Positions 1,221 through 12,866 of a stretch of 12,866 bases of DNA are shown one piece after another. The notes under the pieces were generated by a model, which was not told the origin of the DNA, did not search any database, and saw only the letters and a list, made by a program, of their open reading frames with translations. The stretch spans positions 1 to 12,866 of the forward strand of contig JACQWU010000028.1 of assembly GCA_016209155.1 (NCBI GenBank), written 5' to 3'. Origin of the DNA: Candidatus Desantisiibacteriota bacterium (GTDB lineage Bacteria; JACRDZ01). The position numbers and the translations under genes were made by a program. How positions within the stretch are numbered: position 1 is the first letter of the stretch; each line of letters opens with the position of its first letter.

Positions 1221-3017
1221 ATGATTAAGGGAACTAAAACGGGTTTCTTCCATACTGAACGAATTTCAGATAGATGGTGGTTTATTACACCCGATGGAAA
1301 TGCATTTTTTTCACTGGGAATGTATTGTGTGAGAATGGGAGGCATTCCGGAAAACGAGACAGGAAAAAGACCATATAAAGAAAATTGTTTGAAAAAATAT
1401 GGTTCTGAAAAGAAATGGATGGAAGTAAGTTTAAGTAATCTGCAAAATTGGGGATTTAATACTATCGGGGATTGGTCATCTCAGTCTATTATCAATGCCA
1501 GGAGGCTTCCTTATGTTATTGGATTGAATTTAAATAAAGTTGGTAATAATGTCATTCCTGAAGGTTCTTACGGTTTTTTCCCGGATGTATTTGATCCGAA
1601 GTTCAAAGAAGCTGTTGAAGGTCTTATCCAAAATCGTTTTAAAGAATTTCCATGGTTAAAAGACGATCCGTGGCTGGTGGGGTATTTTACCTCTGATGAA
1701 CCTGCATGGTATGGAAGCAGACAGAGAAGAGGCGCTTTGACGGATGATTTTAGCGGGCTTCCAAAAGAAGCACCCGGTAAAAAGGCATGGAAAGAATTTA
1801 TTCAAAAAAGATATGGTTATATTTTTGAATTAAATGTTGCATGGGAAAAGAAATTTAAAAGTTTTGATGAATTACTGGAGACTAATATATTAATAAGTAA
1901 TGAAAATATTGAAAGAGATAAATCAGATTTTTTACGTTTAATTGCGGAAGAATTCGGCCGTATTCCATTTGAAATATTAAAAAAGTATGATTCCAATCAT
2001 TTGATTTTAGGTTCAAGACCAACCAGAGATTATCCTGAAGTCATAGAAGGATTAGGTAAATATACAGATGTTTTTGGTATGAGTTATTATGGATTAAATG
2101 AAGGATATGCAATTAATCCTGATTTTGACAAAGTGGTTAGAAATTTATATACATATGGCAGGAAACCGCTTATATTGGGTGTACTATTGACATCTGAGGA
2201 TTCAGGAATGCCTTTTTCCAATGTTAAGACACAGAAGGACAGGGGAATAAGTTATAAAAAGTATTTAAAAAAACTTGCAGAAACCCCATTTATAATAGGT
2301 GTTCACTGGTTTCAATATTTTGACCCGCCTTTAAACTGTTATGATAAACAGGCAAGCAATTGGGGGCTTGTAAGAGATACGGATGAACCTTATGAAGCTG
2401 CAGTAGAAATAATAAGTGATGCGAATAAAGATATATATGATTTTATAATCGGACGCGATGGAACATCATTTGAAAAAGATAAAAGTTTTGGTAAGCAAAC
2501 AGAATTGAAACAAAAACCTTTAAATTTATCTAAAAATATTTCAATCCTTGATTGGGATTTTGAAGAAGCCAGCGGCTTATTTAAAGGTTCCTCTGACACC
2601 TGGAAATTTCAATCATGGAAAGGCGGCAGTAAAGCTGAATTGGATGCGAAAATCAGTCATCATGGGAAATATTCATTAAAAATATCAGGAGGTAATGTGC
2701 CAGGGTGGGAATCAATCGGTGTGGGAATTCAATATTCTCCTTCAATGAAATTGATTAAAGGAACAAAATATAAATTTTCAGTGTGGATAAAAACTGAAGA
2801 AGTGGAATTTGGCGCAATAATCAGAATTAAAGTTAAAAATAGTGATGGGAAGTCACAATATTTTGATTCACCAAAAGCACATGGAACATACGATTGGCAA
2901 AAGGTTGAATTCTCTTTTACCCCGCAAAAAGATAATACAATTGAGTATTTAAGCACACAATTGATAGGGCAGGGGACAGCATGGTTTGATGAAATTAAAT
3001 TAGAGGTAATAGATTAA
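1221..3017 (+). CDS. Glycoside hydrolase (clan GH-A-like TIM barrel) with C-terminal carbohydrate-binding module
   Basis: The 598-residue product starts with TGFFHTERISDRWWFITPDG, the N-terminal strand typical of agarase/beta-galactosidase-like barrels (GH42/GH50-like). SDEPAW at 158-163 carries a likely acid/base Glu160, and LTSED around Glu326 is a candidate nucleophile at the strand-7 position; GVHWFQYFDPP begins at 360. Residues about 441-598 form a beta-rich CBM4/9-like jelly roll, ending in the usual WFDEIKL. The likely role is cleavage or editing of the polysaccharide made by the neighbours; substrate and exact GH family are not determined. ATG 1221 has a weak GGATGGA upstream and gives no signal peptide. 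The upstream codons in this frame look like real family sequence (YFDQYSGWK just before Met1) but have no start codon, so the true N-terminus may be about 25 residues longer and frameshifted. Its stop overlaps the next start by one base. Confidence 0.8.
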   Translation: MIKGTKTGFFHTERISDRWWFITPDGNAFFSLGMYCVRMGGIPENETGKRPYKENCLKKYGSEKKWMEVSLSNLQNWGFNTIGDWSSQSIINARRLPYVIGLNLNKVGNNVIPEGSYGFFPDVFDPKFKEAVEGLIQNRFKEFPWLKDDPWLVGYFTSDEPAWYGSRQRRGALTDDFSGLPKEAPGKKAWKEFIQKRYGYIFELNVAWEKKFKSFDELLETNILISNENIERDKSDFLRLIAEEFGRIPFEILKKYDSNHLILGSRPTRDYPEVIEGLGKYTDVFGMSYYGLNEGYAINPDFDKVVRNLYTYGRKPLILGVLLTSEDSGMPFSNVKTQKDRGISYKKYLKKLAETPFIIGVHWFQYFDPPLNCYDKQASNWGLVRDTDEPYEAAVEIISDANKDIYDFIIGRDGTSFEKDKSFGKQTELKQKPLNLSKNISILDWDFEEASGLFKGSSDTWKFQSWKGGSKAELDAKISHHGKYSLKISGGNVPGWESIGVGIQYSPSMKLIKGTKYKFSVWIKTEEVEFGAIIRIKVKNSDGKSQYFDSPKAHGTYDWQKVEFSFTPQKDNTIEYLSTQLIGQGTAWFDEIKLEVID

Positions 3018-4243
3018 TGAATATTCTTTTCTTAACACGTGAGATTCCTTATCCGGCAAATAGCGGTACAAAAATAAGAACTTTTAAAATTTTACAGTTC
3101 TTGTCCGGTAAATATAAAATAAAATTATTTGTTTCAAGTTTTACAAAAGCAGAAATAAAAAACAAAAAGGATTTTGAATCTGTTTTACCGAATGTGGAGG
3201 TTTTATGCGGCAGTCCGGTATCAGTATTTAATGAAAAAAATATAGTAAAAAAAATAAAATTTTGTATGAATTTAATTTCAAATTTATTTTCTATTGTTCC
3301 TTTAAATGTAAAAAAATGGGAAAATAAAAAAATAAGCAGGAGAATAAAATCGTATATTCATCAGGAAAATGTAGATTTTATTATCTGTGATTCAATTTAT
3401 CAAACAGCTAATCTGCCGGTTACAGGGGAAAATGGCAATAGCTATATTCTTCTTGAACATAATATAGAATCGGAAATAATAAGACGATACATGGAAAATG
3501 AAAGATTTTTTTTAAAAAAAATGTATATTTATTATGAGCTGTGGCGGATGAAAAGATATGAAGCTAAAATATGGAATTCGGCAAAATATAGTTTTGTAAC
3601 TTCAAAAGTGGATTTAGATATATTAAAGACAAGAGTACAGGGAGCAAAAGCCGATTTTTTAGACAATGGCGTAGATACTGAATATTTCACTCCAGGTATT
3701 GATGAAAAGGAAGATGATTGTATCCTTTATTTTGGCAGAATGAACTGGTATCCTAATAGTGAAGCTGTTTACTTTTTTCTTACAGAAATATTCCCTATAA
3801 TAAAAGCCGTTAAAAAAGATATAAAATTTTTTATTATCGGGAAGGATCCAGATAAAAGTATTTATAAATTGGCTGAGAATGATGCTTGTATTAAAATATT
3901 GGGTGAAGTAGAAGACTTAAGACCTTTTTTGCATAAAAGCAAAGTTGTGGTAGTCCCAATACGTATCGGCAGCGGAACGAGACTCAAGATTTTAGAAGCT
4001 ATGGCTGTTGGTAAACCTGTGGTATCAACGAGTATCGGCTGTGAAGGGCTTGATGTTTTTTCCGGGGAGAATATTCTCATTGCCGATAAACCCGAAGATT
4101 TTGCTAAAAAGGTTATAGGACTTTTAAATGATGAAAGTTTGAGAAAGAAAATAGGCCTTTCAGGAAGAAAAACCGTTAAAGAAAAATATGACTGGGAAAT
4201 TATTAACAAAAAGTTTTCAGCTTTTCTTTCAAATTTAAAATAG
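3017..4243 (+). CDS. Glycosyltransferase family 4 (group 1), exosortase-associated sugar transferase type
   Basis: This is a 408-residue GT-B fold enzyme without membrane segments, expected at the cytoplasmic face. The N-terminal half opens with MNILFLTREIPYPANSGTKI, the pattern of the PEP-CTERM/EpsH1-associated transferases (TIGR03087 type). The donor-binding half contains ILYFGRMNWYPN (236-247), FIIGKDP and GSGTRLKILEAMAVGKPVVS (318-337). Glu327 is the second acid of the GT4 EX7E motif; the first position is not acidic, which I believe is usual in this subgroup. It probably adds a hexose from a nucleotide sugar to the lipid-linked glycan. The start overlaps the preceding TAA (TAATG), with GAGGT at 3003-3007 as ribosome site, so it is likely translationally coupled to the hydrolase. 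Sugar and linkage are unknown. Confidence 0.88.
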   Translation: MNILFLTREIPYPANSGTKIRTFKILQFLSGKYKIKLFVSSFTKAEIKNKKDFESVLPNVEVLCGSPVSVFNEKNIVKKIKFCMNLISNLFSIVPLNVKKWENKKISRRIKSYIHQENVDFIICDSIYQTANLPVTGENGNSYILLEHNIESEIIRRYMENERFFLKKMYIYYELWRMKRYEAKIWNSAKYSFVTSKVDLDILKTRVQGAKADFLDNGVDTEYFTPGIDEKEDDCILYFGRMNWYPNSEAVYFFLTEIFPIIKAVKKDIKFFIIGKDPDKSIYKLAENDACIKILGEVEDLRPFLHKSKVVVVPIRIGSGTRLKILEAMAVGKPVVSTSIGCEGLDVFSGENILIADKPEDFAKKVIGLLNDESLRKKIGLSGRKTVKEKYDWEIINKKFSAFLSNLK

Positions 4244-4252
4244 AAAGGTATT

Positions 4253-5389
4253 ATGGAATTTATTTTTTGGATAAATTTATTTTTAATTCTATATGTTTAT
4301 TTCGGATATATAATAATTTTATTATTAATAAAAAGTGTTAGAAAATTAAATATTGATAAAAAAGATTATTATCCTTCTGTTGCACTGCTGATCGGAATTT
4401 ATAATGAAGAAAAGGTAATTGAAGAGAAAATAAAGAATAGTCTAAATCTTGATTATCCTCGTGAAAAAATTAAAATTATTATAGCTTCAGATAACTCTAC
4501 TGATAAATCGCACGATATTATTGGAAAATATAAAGAAAAAGGTGTAATATTATATATAGCTCGAAAAAGACAGGGTAAGGTTGCGAATTTTAATGATGTA
4601 ATAAAAAATCTGGATACTGAAATTGTTATTTTTTCTGATGCAAGCAGTATGTACAGAAGTGATACTATAAAAAAACTTGTAAGAAATTTTAATGATCCTT
4701 ATATCGGCGGAGTTGGGGGCAAGGTTAAATATAGGAATAAATCAGATACTTCGGTAAGCAAAGGTGAGGGAATATACTGGAAGTTGGAATTATTATTAAG
4801 ACGTTTAGAAAGTGAAACCGGTTCAACTATTGTTGTAAGCGGCACTTGCTATGCGATTAGAAGAAGTCTTTTTAGGAGCTTACCGCCGAATCTGCCGGAT
4901 GATCTTATTAATCCGTTAAATGTGATTGCCCAGGGATATAGGATAGTAATTGATGATGAGACAGAGATAATAGAAGAAATCGTAACAACTATTAAGGGAG
5001 AAATAAGAGCAAGAATAAGAATTGTTTCACTTGGTATTGCCGCTGTATTTTCAAATATTAAGGTTTTAAATCCTTTTTTTAATTTTAAAGCGGCTCTTTC
5101 AATATGGTCGCATAAATTATTTCGCTGGTTGAATTTTTTAAATATGTTAATTCTATTTATATCCAATATTTTTTTAACGGAAAAATTATTTTATTATTAT
5201 ATTTTTATATTACAGTTAATATTTTATTCTTTTGCTTTTATTGGATATTTACTTGAAAAATATAATATTAGAACAAAAATATTTTATATCCCTTTTTATT
5301 TTTGCTTGATTAATTTTACGGCTTTTTTAGGTATACTGAATTATTTCAGAGGCAAAAATAGCGGTATATGGGAACCTGTGGAGAGATAA
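4253..5389 (+). CDS. Membrane-anchored glycosyltransferase family 2
   Basis: The 378-residue product has one N-terminal membrane helix (about 4-27), a GT-A catalytic domain (about 40-260) and three or four C-terminal membrane helices (about 290-365), the layout of processive or EPS GT2 enzymes. Visible motifs are ALLIGIYNEEKVIEEKI for nucleotide-sugar binding, ASDNSTD with Asp80, the SDAS metal site at 128-131 (Asp129), PDD at 215-217 where the general base normally sits, and RARIR at 252-256 in the position of the (Q/R)xxRW motif, which is degenerate because the Trp is missing. It likely transfers a sugar to a lipid-linked or growing chain at the inner membrane. AAAGG at 4244-4248 precedes ATG 4253, nine bases after the GT4 stop. 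Synthase activity of the cellulose/PNAG kind is possible but unproven. Confidence 0.87.
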   Translation: MEFIFWINLFLILYVYFGYIIILLLIKSVRKLNIDKKDYYPSVALLIGIYNEEKVIEEKIKNSLNLDYPREKIKIIIASDNSTDKSHDIIGKYKEKGVILYIARKRQGKVANFNDVIKNLDTEIVIFSDASSMYRSDTIKKLVRNFNDPYIGGVGGKVKYRNKSDTSVSKGEGIYWKLELLLRRLESETGSTIVVSGTCYAIRRSLFRSLPPNLPDDLINPLNVIAQGYRIVIDDETEIIEEIVTTIKGEIRARIRIVSLGIAAVFSNIKVLNPFFNFKAALSIWSHKLFRWLNFLNMLILFISNIFLTEKLFYYYIFILQLIFYSFAFIGYLLEKYNIRTKIFYIPFYFCLINFTAFLGILNYFRGKNSGIWEPVER

Positions 5390-5395
5390 GAATTC

Positions 5396-6366
5396 GTGAT
5401 TAATTTTTTTATTGTTTTCATATTGACGTTTTTAGTTTCAAGTTGGGTTACTCCGATTGTAAGAAGGACAGCATGCAGATTAAATTTATTGGATACAGGA
5501 TCAAATCGTACTGTGCATAAAGTCCCTGTCCCCCGAATTGGAGGAGTGGGTATTTTTTTATCTTTTTTAGCAGGATTAGCTTTTATTATGGTTGCTGAAT
5601 ATGGATATTTTTTTAAACATTTTCGTCAGTTTTTTGGAATTTTGACAGGTGGCACGTTGATTTTTATTATTGGATTATACGATGATGTCTATGGGATTGA
5701 TGCAAAAAAGAAATTCTTTTTACAGATTTTAGTGTCTCTTATACTGGTTTTATTGGGTTTTAAAATTCAGAGCATTTAACAGCTATCTCTTCATTGATAC
5801 TTTTTGTAGTTGCAAGCTGGGATAATAATTTTTTTGTAGCTGTTATTATGATTATTCTTGCAGGATCAAGTATTGGTTTTTTATGGCACAATTTTAATCC
5901 TGCGAGTATTTTTATGGGTGATTGCGGCAGTATGCTGCTTGGTTTTATTTTAGCTTCGATTTGCATTATGGACGCATATAAAGGCGCTTTAGCTATTTCT
6001 TTATCTATACCTTTTATAGCTTTAGGACTACCGATATTTGATACTGTTTCATCCTTTATCCGGCGTATTTATCATGGAAAACCGCCTTTTCAGGCCGATA
6101 AGAATCATATTCATCATAAACTTTTAAGGCTTGGACTGAATCAGCAGGAAGCAGTTGGTATATTATATCTGATTTCATTAATTTTGGGAGGTGTGGCTTT
6201 ATTTTTGGCAGCCAAAAAAGGCAGTAATTTAATTATTTATCTATGCGGTATTGCCATATTAGTGATTTTTTTTATGTTAAGAGGGGAAAAAAAATTCTTA
6301 TCTATAATAAAGGATAAATTCAGACATAAACACATAGTTGAAAATATAAATGGAGATAAAAAATAA
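5396..6366 (+). pseudogene. WecA/MraY-type polyprenyl-phosphate sugar-1-phosphate transferase, centre deleted and frame changed
   Basis: The N-terminal part is 5396-5779 (127 residues, GTG start with GGAGAG at 5380-5385). It has membrane helices, the VHKVPVPRIGGVGIF motif and the Mg-binding GLYDDVYGIDAKKKF motif, and stops at TAA 5777. The C-terminal part continues in another frame from about 5776 to 6366, starting LTAISSLILF, then IFMGDCGSMLLGF and the HIHHKLLRLGL histidine loop. Intact enzymes have about 40 residues between these blocks, including a membrane helix and the catalytic NxxNxxDGxDGLA loop. None of that is encoded here in any frame, so this is a deletion as well as a frameshift. 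The intact enzyme starts glycan assembly by moving a sugar phosphate onto undecaprenyl phosphate. TTG 5794 could restart translation of the second half, but no piece carries a complete active site. An assembly error is the main alternative. Confidence 0.85.
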
Positions 6367-6367
6367 A

Positions 6368-7200
<833 letters not shown>

Positions 7201-7216
<16 letters not shown>

Positions 7217-7833
7217 TAATAGTTTTTCTTTTATTATCTTTAGTTGGATTGGGGCTGTTTTTTCTATCTTTTCGTTCAAGTAAAAATTGGAATAATCCGG
7301 ATTTTAAAAATATTCCAGTAAAAATAAATAATTGGGAGGGGAAGGATGAGTCTTTTTCTGAGGAAATTTACCAGAGACTGGCAGCCAGTGAGACCCTTTT
7401 AAGAAAATATACAAAAGAAGGAACAGGTGAGGTCATTTATCTATGGGCGGCTTATTACAGGGATCAGATGAAATCAACAGCTCATATACCGCGCATCTGT
7501 TTTATCGGACAGGGATGGAATACTCAATTTGACGGTAAAGAGGATATTGAAATTAATGAAAGTCCTAAAAATATTTTAAATATGAAAAAATTGGTAATGA
7601 AAAGAGAAAATTCAAATCAGGTTATTTATTACTGGTTTCAGTCGCAGGATAAAATTTTTAATGATGAACTTTATAAAAATATATATCGTTTTACAGGTGC
7701 TGTTTTTAACAATCGGACAGATTTAACTTTCATCCGGATTAGCATGATAACAGCAAATGATAAAGATGCCGAACAGTTGAAGCAGTTTATCAGGGATATT
7801 TATCCTTCCATTCAAAAAGAGATCCCCAGGTAG
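7201..7833 (+). CDS. epsI: EpsI-family exosortase-associated protein
   Basis: The 210-residue protein has one N-terminal membrane anchor (about 4-25) followed by a periplasmic domain of the EpsI type. Recognisable parts are VKINNWEGKD, a YLWAAYYRDQMKSTAHIPRI segment and the CFIGQGW motif; the family typically has H-x-P-x-x-C and GxGW at this point. EpsI proteins are found next to, or fused to, exosortases and are thought to assist export or EPS assembly; their biochemical role is not settled. The start is TTG 7201 with a strong GGGGAG (7187-7192) eight bases before it, so the gene begins inside the last codons of the exosortase gene and is probably translationally coupled to it. It is the last gene of the operon and is followed by a hairpin terminator. 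Confidence 0.9.
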
Positions 7834-7876: not shown

Positions 7877-7896
7877 TGTCCTACGGACATTTTTTT
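7877..7896 (+). terminator. Hairpin terminator between converging operons
   Basis: TGTCC-TAC-GGACA (7877-7889) forms a 5-bp stem with a 3-base loop, extendable by G-T and A-T pairs, and is followed by seven T. It lies 43 bases after the epsI stop. The T-run overlaps the stop codon of the minus-strand TPR gene. The flanking AATTAA and TTAATT could give a short U-run on the other strand too, so it may act in both directions. Confidence 0.75.
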
Positions 7897-9550
7897 AATT
7901 ACTTAGTTCCCTTATCAGGTTTTTTGTCTCATCCGCTTCAGAAAAAACAAGGTTCTGCTCCAGTGCTTTGTTTAAATTTGATAGAGCATCTTTTTTTTCG
8001 CCGATTTTATAATAAGAATAACCCAAATGATAATAAATTGTAGGCTCTGCCGGCAAATATTTAAGTGCGTCTTTGAAATGTGTTATGGCTTTTTGGTAAT
8101 CACCTTTTAATAAATAAATATAACCCAGTGTGTCAATAACAGTTCCATTCTGAGGAGATAGTTCCATTGCTTTTGAGGCATAGCCGAAAGCAGTATCCAG
8201 TTTATCATTTTTTGTGGCATATATATAAGCAAGGTTATTATAGGCGCGGCTGTCATTTGGTAATAATTTAATAACGATAGTATATTCCTTTATAGCCTGA
8301 TCAACATCTTTCTTTTTCTCAGAAATTATTCCCATCATCAAATGAGCTTCACCATTATTGGGCTCTTTATCCAATATTTTTTTTAAGTGTATAATTGATT
8401 TGTCATATTCTTCTTTACGCACATAAATTGAAGCCAGATTTTTGTGCGCGCCCATATCGTCCTGATTAGCTTTTAATACTAAGTTGGTTTCTTCAATTGC
8501 TTTATCCAGTTCATTTTTTTGAAGATATATCTGGCTGAGAACTATATGCACAGAGATTTGCGTTGGATCAATCTCCAATGCTTTTTGCAATTCAGCAATA
8601 GCTTCCTCAACTTTATATGCAGAGAGATAAAAAGCGGCAAGCTGTAAGTTTGCCTTTATATTTTTAGTACCAGTAGTGGAATTGGCTGAACTTTTGAGTT
8701 TTCCCAGATTTTCATTATAAAGCTTTTCATAATTTTCAGTTTCTTTTAATGCATTTTTTGCCTGAGGATTTTCAGGATATTGTTTTAATACAAGATTTAT
8801 CTGGTTTTTTGCCATTTTAAAGTTGGCCTGACGAACATATATTTTTGCGATTTCAAAATGAATAGTCATTAATTTCGAATTAATATCCAGAATTTTTTTT
8901 AGCTGGGCAAGTGCTAAATCCAGATTTCCCTTAAGCTGATATGCGGCATTGAGATTATAATACCCCAGCGTTGATTTAGGATAATCTTTTATAAGATTAC
9001 TATAATAAATTAAGGCGTCATCAAGAGATTTAGAGATTGACTCATTTTTTTTATTTCTTATGTAAAATTGCGCCATAAAAAGAGGCATATTAACAGCCAG
9101 CCGTGTGTCCGGATATTGTTTATTTATCATTTTATATTCTTCCAATGCTTTGTCTATTTCTTTATTTTTTTCAAATATATTTCCTCTTGCCATATTAGCC
9201 TGAGCGCAGGCTTCATGATTATCTTTGAATTTTTCTATTACTTTATCGAAGGTTTTAAGAGCTTCTGCTTCATTTTTTTGCATAAGGTGCAAATTGGCAA
9301 TAATAAAATATATTTGCGCCGCATTATCCCATGAAGGATATTCATTTAAAATTTCATAATAATCTTTTATCAGTTTTTCAAGTTTCTGCGGTTTTATATC
9401 TTTTTCTTTTTTTAAAATTTCAATTCTTTCTTTCTCAATATGCCAGAATTGTTTTTCAGCAGAATATATTCTTTCCGCATGAACTTTACTCATAATAAAA
9501 AATGGTAAAATAAATATAATAATCGTAAAATTTTTTTTATTTAGGGACAT
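7895..9550 (-). CDS. Secreted tetratricopeptide-repeat (TPR) protein
   Basis: The 551-residue product starts with a Sec signal peptide (Lys-rich start, hydrophobic core IIIFILPFFIMS, likely cut after VHA near residue 25); there is no lipobox Cys. The rest is helical: irregular TPR-like repeats in the first half, then after about residue 295 a run of seven or so regular 34-residue TPRs with the usual spacing (e.g. AIAELQKALEIDP, AYNNLAYIYATK, TVIDTLGYIYLLKGDYQKAI). TPR proteins are scaffolds, and periplasmic ones often accompany EPS and exosortase loci; here it converges on that operon, so a scaffold role in glycan or protein export is an inference. AAGGAGT (9557-9563, minus strand) precedes ATG 9550, and a sigma70-type promoter lies directly upstream. 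No enzymatic motif is seen. Confidence 0.88.
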   Translation of the reverse strand: MSLNKKNFTIIIFILPFFIMSKVHAERIYSAEKQFWHIEKERIEILKKEKDIKPQKLEKLIKDYYEILNEYPSWDNAAQIYFIIANLHLMQKNEAEALKTFDKVIEKFKDNHEACAQANMARGNIFEKNKEIDKALEEYKMINKQYPDTRLAVNMPLFMAQFYIRNKKNESISKSLDDALIYYSNLIKDYPKSTLGYYNLNAAYQLKGNLDLALAQLKKILDINSKLMTIHFEIAKIYVRQANFKMAKNQINLVLKQYPENPQAKNALKETENYEKLYNENLGKLKSSANSTTGTKNIKANLQLAAFYLSAYKVEEAIAELQKALEIDPTQISVHIVLSQIYLQKNELDKAIEETNLVLKANQDDMGAHKNLASIYVRKEEYDKSIIHLKKILDKEPNNGEAHLMMGIISEKKKDVDQAIKEYTIVIKLLPNDSRAYNNLAYIYATKNDKLDTAFGYASKAMELSPQNGTVIDTLGYIYLLKGDYQKAITHFKDALKYLPAEPTIYYHLGYSYYKIGEKKDALSNLNKALEQNLVFSEADETKNLIRELSN

Positions 9551-9685: not shown

Positions 9686-9774
9686 GCCGGAGTGGTGAAA
9701 CTGGCAGACACAGGGGACTCAAAATCCCCCGAGCCTCACAGCTCATATCGGTTCAATTCCGATCTCCGGCACCA
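9686..9774 (+). tRNA. tRNA-Leu, anticodon CAA, CCA encoded
   Basis: The acceptor stem pairs GCCGGAG (9686-9692) with CTCCGGC (9764-9770), followed by discriminator A and encoded CCA (9772-9774). The anticodon arm is GGGGA-CTCAAAA-TCCCC, which puts CAA at the anticodon, decoding UUG. A long class II variable arm (GAGCCTCACAGCTC region) and T-arm ATCGG-TTCAATT-CCGAT confirm a leucine tRNA of 89 bases. Its 3' end is followed within 17 bases by an integrase remnant pointing at it, so it has probably served as an attachment site. Confidence 0.95.
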
Positions 9775-10194: not shown

Positions 10195-10734
10195 ATGCCT
10201 AATAATAAAAACAAGATTTATCTCTATGAAGCTTTAGAACTCCGCTCTGAATATGATGCAAGAATAAAAAATTTAAAAGATTTATTGCCTGAAGCTAAAG
10301 AAAATAGGGATAAATTTTATTTCAGAAGGGATGATGAGGTAAAGCTGCGACCTGCTTCCGGCTTTAGTGTCGATGAAGTTCGCGATGAATTGAATATAAT
10401 AGAATTCAAAAAGCGAAAGCTTAATAATACTATTCAGCAAGTAAATTTTAATCATCATATAGTAATCAATGATCAAGAAATAAATCTTGCCGAGGCATTG
10501 GAATTAAGAAAATCAGTTAATGTGCAAATAGGTGAGTTGAGTGCTCAATTAGTTTCATCAGCATATGAGAGGGTGATTTACAAAGAAGGCCGCGACATCG
10601 TGGAAAGTCCAAATATTGAATTCTCAAAAACTATGAATGCTCTTGAAAACAAAAGATTATTATTTCGGGATCTAAATAGAAAACTTCGTGCAATTTCATA
10701 TAGTATCAGTATTGATTTTATAGATGAAAAATAA
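10195..10734 (+). CDS. DIP1984-like (DUF6847-type) coiled-coil protein
   Basis: The 179-residue acidic/basic helical protein resembles the DIP1984/septicolysin family, whose members share an EAL(x)LR start, a central paired-helix region and an end like (E)LNRKIQ. It is an internal duplication: YEALELRSEYDARIKNLKDL (11-30) matches LAEALELRKSVNVQIGELSA (98-117), and the segment around FKKRKLNNTIQQVNF (71-85) matches NKRLLFRDLNRKLRAIS (152-168). No signal peptide or membrane helix is present, so it is cytoplasmic. The family has a known fold but no established function. A strong ribosome site, AAAGGAG (10182-10188), sits 6 bases from ATG, below a near-consensus promoter. It lies inside the tRNA-adjacent accessory region, beyond an integrase remnant, so horizontal origin is likely. 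Confidence 0.7.
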   Translation: MPNNKNKIYLYEALELRSEYDARIKNLKDLLPEAKENRDKFYFRRDDEVKLRPASGFSVDEVRDELNIIEFKKRKLNNTIQQVNFNHHIVINDQEINLAEALELRKSVNVQIGELSAQLVSSAYERVIYKEGRDIVESPNIEFSKTMNALENKRLLFRDLNRKLRAISYSISIDFIDEK

Positions 10735-12550: not shown

Positions 12551-12866
12551 ATGACAAAAATAAGTATTTAGATTGAAGCTGGTATTTTATTCTTTTTATT
12601 TGCAAATATTAATCGTGCCGAATCACTAAAAGCCCCGCTGTCAGATCATTACAACGGCAAACACTTTTATGACAATGAAAAGCACCATACATTTTCTGAT
12701 GAGGTGAAATGGTTTTGGGAAATGGATACCGTGGAATGGCCTGAATGGATAGATGACCCCCGAGAGCCGCCTCCTCCGGAAAAAGTAAATAATGGTGATT
12801 TGTGCATTGCATATATTAATCAGGCAACAGTATTAATTCAAATGGATAAAATAAATATCCTTACTG
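12551..12866 (+). pseudogene. Metallo-beta-lactamase-fold hydrolase (UlaG/NAPE-PLD-like), amber stop at codon 7, runs off the right edge
   Basis: AGGGAGA (12538-12544) precedes ATG 12551. The frame reads MTKISI, then TAG (12569-12571), then continues open to the window end: a hydrophobic signal-like segment AGILFFLFANINRAES, the SDHYNGKHFYDNE motif typical of the N-terminus of NAPE-PLD/UlaG-like enzymes, a Trp- and Pro-rich linker, and YINQATVLIQMDKINILT, the first strands of the MBL fold (family consensus GHATVLIQ...NILTDP). The metal-binding HxHxDH motif would lie beyond the window. Such enzymes hydrolyse phosphodiester or lactone bonds; the substrate here is unknown. No ATG, GTG or TTG lies in frame between the stop and the SDHYNG motif, so the stop should abolish expression unless read through. 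A sequencing error is possible. Confidence 0.75.

Follow-up and report, generated by a model that had tools for sequence, protein, structure and literature searches.

The locus described here raises a question with two parts: has an exosortase-linked polysaccharide cluster lost the enzyme that initiates its glycan, and, if so, did the loss occur in the organism or in the assembly? The window, by which we mean the whole stretch of DNA that was analyzed, is the complete contig C4 (12,866 bases, G+C 31%) of a draft genome of 3.08 Mb in 352 contigs that is 78.8% complete. Its forward strand opens with a Wzy_C/O-antigen-ligase-like gene, followed in this order by one encoding a carbohydrate-binding domain, glycosyltransferases of family 4 (GT4) and family 2 (GT2), a WecA-like gene, an exosortase and EpsI; behind EpsI, the reverse strand encodes a PrsT-like TPR protein. 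The features used below are as follows.

2–1141, + strand: Wzy_C/O-antigen-ligase-like protein, truncated by the contig start (PF04932, E 1e-19; TIGR03097, 98.1 bits, under the cut-off of 188.1)
3017–4243, + strand: glycosyltransferase family 4, resembling TIGR03087 of PEP-CTERM/XrtA systems (PF13692; TIGR03087 over 3–405 of 408 aa, 248.5 bits, under the curated 316.65)
4253–5389, + strand: glycosyltransferase family 2, intact (PF00535, E 5e-23)
5396–5779, + strand: N-terminal fragment of a WecA-like polyprenyl-phosphate N-acetylhexosamine-1-phosphate transferase (PF00953, 2–48 of 160; TIGR02380, 3–109 of 346)
5775–5778, + strand: junction of the putative deletion, the breakpoint being ambiguous over at most 4 bases (junction frame analysis and homologue alignment)
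5776–6366, + strand: C-terminal fragment of the same WecA-like gene (PF00953, 96–158 of 160), 196 codons (5776–6363) and a stop (6364–6366)
6350–7216, + strand: exosortase (EpsH/XrtA-like), intact (PF09721, 3–253 of 254, E 2.2e-68; TIGR03109, 210.8 bits, cut-off 208)
7201–7833, + strand: EpsI-family protein (DUF3485), intact (PF11984, 2–201 of 203; TIGR02914, 95 bits, cut-off 42.8)
7895–9550, − strand: TPR protein, PrsT-like (TIGR02917, 179.7 bits, under the cut-off of 312.2)

This gene set is typical of an exosortase-linked exopolysaccharide locus (PMC1569441). The initial annotation had described the operon around the WecA-like gene as intact, and our analysis agrees: the EpsH-type exosortase and EpsI are both nearly full length (PF09721, PF11984), and the polysaccharide genes upstream of the exosortase (GT4, GT2 and Wzy_C) match their families.

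Several other features of the contig were recorded. The start of the exosortase ORF overlaps the 3′ end of the broken gene, and just behind that start, adjoining the end of the broken gene, lies an 11-copy AAT repeat encoding poly-Asn (6374–6406), a triplet array whose changes in length leave the exosortase frame unchanged. A tRNA-Leu gene (anticodon caa; 9686–9774) separates the PrsT-like TPR gene from the genes downstream of it, and is absent from the Rfam gathering-score list, which holds no match for the window. Searches of the window against a plasmid collection and PADLOC likewise gave no match. A small protein at 10195–10734 is barely above the Pfam cut-off for DUF6847 (27.6 versus 27 bits). 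The contig end (12540–12866) has no ORF of convincing length; an ATG on the forward strand at 12551 is followed by TAG six codons later, and the sequence beyond looks protein-like.

The broken WecA-like gene

Both halves of the WecA-like gene match PF00953 and TIGR02380, as expected of WecA/TagO/WbpL-like transferases of the polytopic PNPT superfamily, and this homology pattern rules out a chance ORF as the source of the two-frame arrangement. The first half begins with a GTG at 5396 and runs for 127 codons to I127 (5774–5776), where a TAA (5777–5779) produced by the frame shift ends it. The second half opens with L-T-A-I-S-S in a different frame; its candidate start codons are a TTG at 5794 and an ATG at 5848, and neither has a clear ribosome-binding site. 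The motifs YDDVYGID and HKVPVPRIGG are retained in the N-terminal fragment, and IFMGDCGSM and DKNHIHHK in the C-terminal one, so that the DDxx(D/N), FMGD and HxHH motifs of the superfamily are all present. In contrast to WecA, TagO and WbpL-like enzymes, the gene lacks the catalytic loop and one helix and has a disrupted frame: the PF00953 domain is matched at 2–48 and 96–158 with positions 49–95 absent, and the TIGR02380 scores of the two halves are 41.7 and 66 against a cut-off of 326 bits.

To define the missing part, we compared the gene with its intact homologues. In 88 of 96 aligned homologues, 40–42 residues lie between the edges that align with the window (range over all 96, 33–44), and this stretch comprises one transmembrane helix together with the loop NxxNLxDGxDGLAxG. 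Inside the gap, every one of the ten columns that are at least 90% conserved, which are those of the loop, is absent; outside it, 32 of 33 such columns are retained, and only P35 differs, with a G here. This bears out the initial annotation, which had reported two halves in different frames, a loss of about 40 residues including the loop and a helix, and codons that were absent and not merely shifted. The 96-homologue alignment thus excludes a plain frameshift, since the codons themselves are missing. The loop was found in every one of 113 homologous matches, which include a few duplicates of one gene (109 by pattern, and four by eye, with DIMDG replacing DGxDG). Therefore, its absence here is no family variant, and a natural loop-less subfamily can be dismissed. 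Relative to its intact homologues, the gene has the disrupted frame expected of a pseudogene.

What does this loss mean for activity? In the PDB, a profile built from the intact relatives finds chains of MraY and of DPAGT1, and in the MraY alignments shown the lost stretch corresponds to the 'IVGSANAVNLTDGLDGLAIG' region of the 4j72 chain. Going by the motif, we take Asn185 of human DPAGT1 to be the second Asn of NxxN. In DPAGT1, a structural member of the same superfamily, the chelators of the catalytic Mg2+ are Asn185 and Asp252, and the mutants Asn185Ala and Asn185Asp have 1.2% and 0.7% activity, respectively (PMC6218659). Given that the fragments lack both the Mg2+ ligand and the helix, transferase activity is not expected, and the product of the gene is, as judged from its sequence, almost certainly dead.

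Junction, age and origin of the lesion

The breakpoint was found at 5776/5777, inside the interval of 5760–5800 where the initial annotation had placed it. Read in the downstream frame, TTA (5776) is preceded by AAT TCA GAG CAT (N S E H) in place of the L A x G of homologues, so that bases shared by the two sides extend no further left than 5775; in the upstream frame, 5777–5779 is TAA, so that they extend no further right than 5778. Assuming an intact ancestor, the sequence common to both sides is therefore at most about 4 nt (5775–5778). For the frame to shift as it does, the length of the deletion must be 1 modulo 3, which implies that about 121, 124 or 127 nt were lost. Collapse of a repeat in a de Bruijn assembly requires a shared k-mer of 20 or more bases. 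Thus, the short overlap argues against both long direct-repeat recombination and the repeat type of short-read assembly collapse, and the junction fits a small illegitimate deletion.

The rest of the gene gives an indication of age. Its 323 remaining codons contain no internal stop and no second frame shift. In a simulation of neutral decay, with substitutions and with indels at one tenth of the substitution rate, the probability of observing no lesion was 0.56, 0.30, 0.085, 0.025 and 0.0045 at 0.5, 1, 2, 3 and 5% divergence, respectively. The absence of any further lesion means that the event is either young or not real; youth is also the look expected of an artefact.

Weighing these observations, we consider a recent and real deletion, yielding a loss-of-function allele (a pseudogene) that may be carried by only part of the population, to be the probable explanation. 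Such a deletion, arising without long flanking repeats, would have removed the helix and the loop and shifted the frame. The first ORF would then be translated as a 127-residue stub, and the second, which has no good start, would be inactive. We infer that the deletion is present in the DNA of living cells.

The strongest competitor, to which we give a clearly smaller though appreciable chance, is an artefact, in which a chimeric read, mixed strains or a gap joined wrongly would have broken the gene in the assembly while the organism's own copy is intact. The fragmentation and incompleteness of the draft speak for this explanation, as do the otherwise pristine state of both fragments and a gene neighborhood of a conserved, apparently working type. 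On the other side, the short overlap at the junction argues against the commonest mechanism of collapse, the missing stretch occurs on no other contig of the assembled genome, and the assembly shows few frame lesions elsewhere, with no internal stops in the same-genome controls (0 of 44 ABC_tran matches and 0 of 5 tRNA-synt_1 matches). A DNA search of the region against the genome returned only the region itself and short low-scoring matches, and the missing piece was not found relocated; the sole other PF00953 gene is MraY. The assembly collapse raised in the initial annotation is therefore disfavored in its usual repeat form, and its chimeric or strain-mixture forms could still account for the junction.

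It is improbable that the deletion allele and an intact allele coexist in a mixed or phase-variable population and so segregate or switch the production of the surface glycan. A very young lesion within an otherwise intact cluster would suit such a population; however, the assembled genome contains no intact copy, and a deletion without long repeats is irreversible, so that any coexistence would be a simple polymorphism and not switching.

Least credible of all is the idea that the halves cooperate as a functional split enzyme, or serve as a protein without enzymatic function. Neither fragment contains a stop, and the other conserved residues persist in both, but the lost loop holds a catalytic Mg2+ ligand of the family (PMC6218659), the helix is gone as well, no clear ribosome-binding site is available to the second fragment and none of the 113 homologous matches does without the loop. 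The initial annotation had spoken of a split protein devoid of an active-site loop; the fragments do lack it, and by analogy with DPAGT1, whose Mg2+-chelating Asn has no counterpart here, a functional split is unlikely.

Initiating enzymes and known exosortase loci

If the deletion is real, then it introduces a question concerning how the surface glycan is primed. As the initial annotation had proposed, we searched the genome for a second gene of the WecA or WbaP type. Besides the WecA-like gene, the only assembled PF00953 gene is the MraY on contig C40, which lies in a cell-wall cluster beside a partial MurF-like ORF and an FtsW-like ORF (both by eye). The search also revealed a polyprenyl-phosphate sugar transferase on contig C247 with a complete catalytic domain (PF02397, 1–178 of 179, E 8.5e-69; TIGR03025, 337.5 bits versus a cut-off of 295.55), although its start is cut by the contig end. 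Downstream of it are a large protein in which SLBB/Wza-like segments recur (by eye) and a chain-length protein similar to Wzz. The earlier expectation that the locus depends on a further initiating enzyme is thus borne out insofar as such an enzyme exists, and this enzyme may serve the locus on C4. In carriers of the deletion allele, the glycan might be primed by this PF02397 enzyme or by an unassembled gene, or might not be made. A further proposal, that the pathway as a whole is being lost, found no support: no other gene of the cluster is damaged, and the genome has 16 PEP-CTERM matches over the PF07589 cut-off. At L124, 171–1746, contig C59 carries a second exosortase followed by a 246-codon ORF with an EpsI-like opening (by eye).

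These results have practical consequences. Annotators should not label the gene at 5396–6366 a functional WecA, and in pathway reconstructions of this draft genome the C247 enzyme is the candidate for the initiating transferase. If the deletion is real, the locus offers a recent natural knock-out of the initiating enzyme in an exosortase locus, which is of modest importance. Subject to confirmation by reads, we regard the case as a commonplace loss of function in a known enzyme, and an assembly fault as less likely.

The broken gene shares a young, single lesion and intact neighbors with ordinary bacterial pseudogenes that arise from small illegitimate deletions, and we found no difference from them. 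The locus also resembles the exosortase/EpsI/PEP-CTERM loci described previously (PMC1569441) in its grouping of GT4, GT2, exosortase, EpsI and a PrsT-like TPR gene. A WecA-like gene adjoins exosortase and EpsI in other loci as well (L036–L040, L043, L044, L046, L047, L055, L058, L065, L068 and L095); in many beta- and gammaproteobacterial loci it lies directly 3′ of EpsI, whereas in the window it precedes the exosortase and is broken. No close intact relative of the operon was found, the nearest genomes compared being of the same phylum only, and in the stretches of those genomes that were examined no WecA-like gene occurs near the exosortase genes. Instead, in the same-phylum genomes G003 and G001, the slot directly upstream of exosortase-EpsI is filled by a PF02397 enzyme (L122, 8376–9791; L123, 5316–6728); the full-length PF02397 gene, exosortase and EpsI together span 8376–11262 in L122 and 3777–6728 in L123. 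Because these two relatives carry the PF02397 type in that position, one might speculate that in this sparsely sampled phylum a WecA-type initiator is being replaced by the PF02397 type in an exosortase-linked glycan locus and has been caught just after its inactivation, an idea that we hold to be rather unlikely. Both types of initiating enzyme occur beside exosortases, and the present genome contains one representative of either type, of which the WecA-type one is broken.
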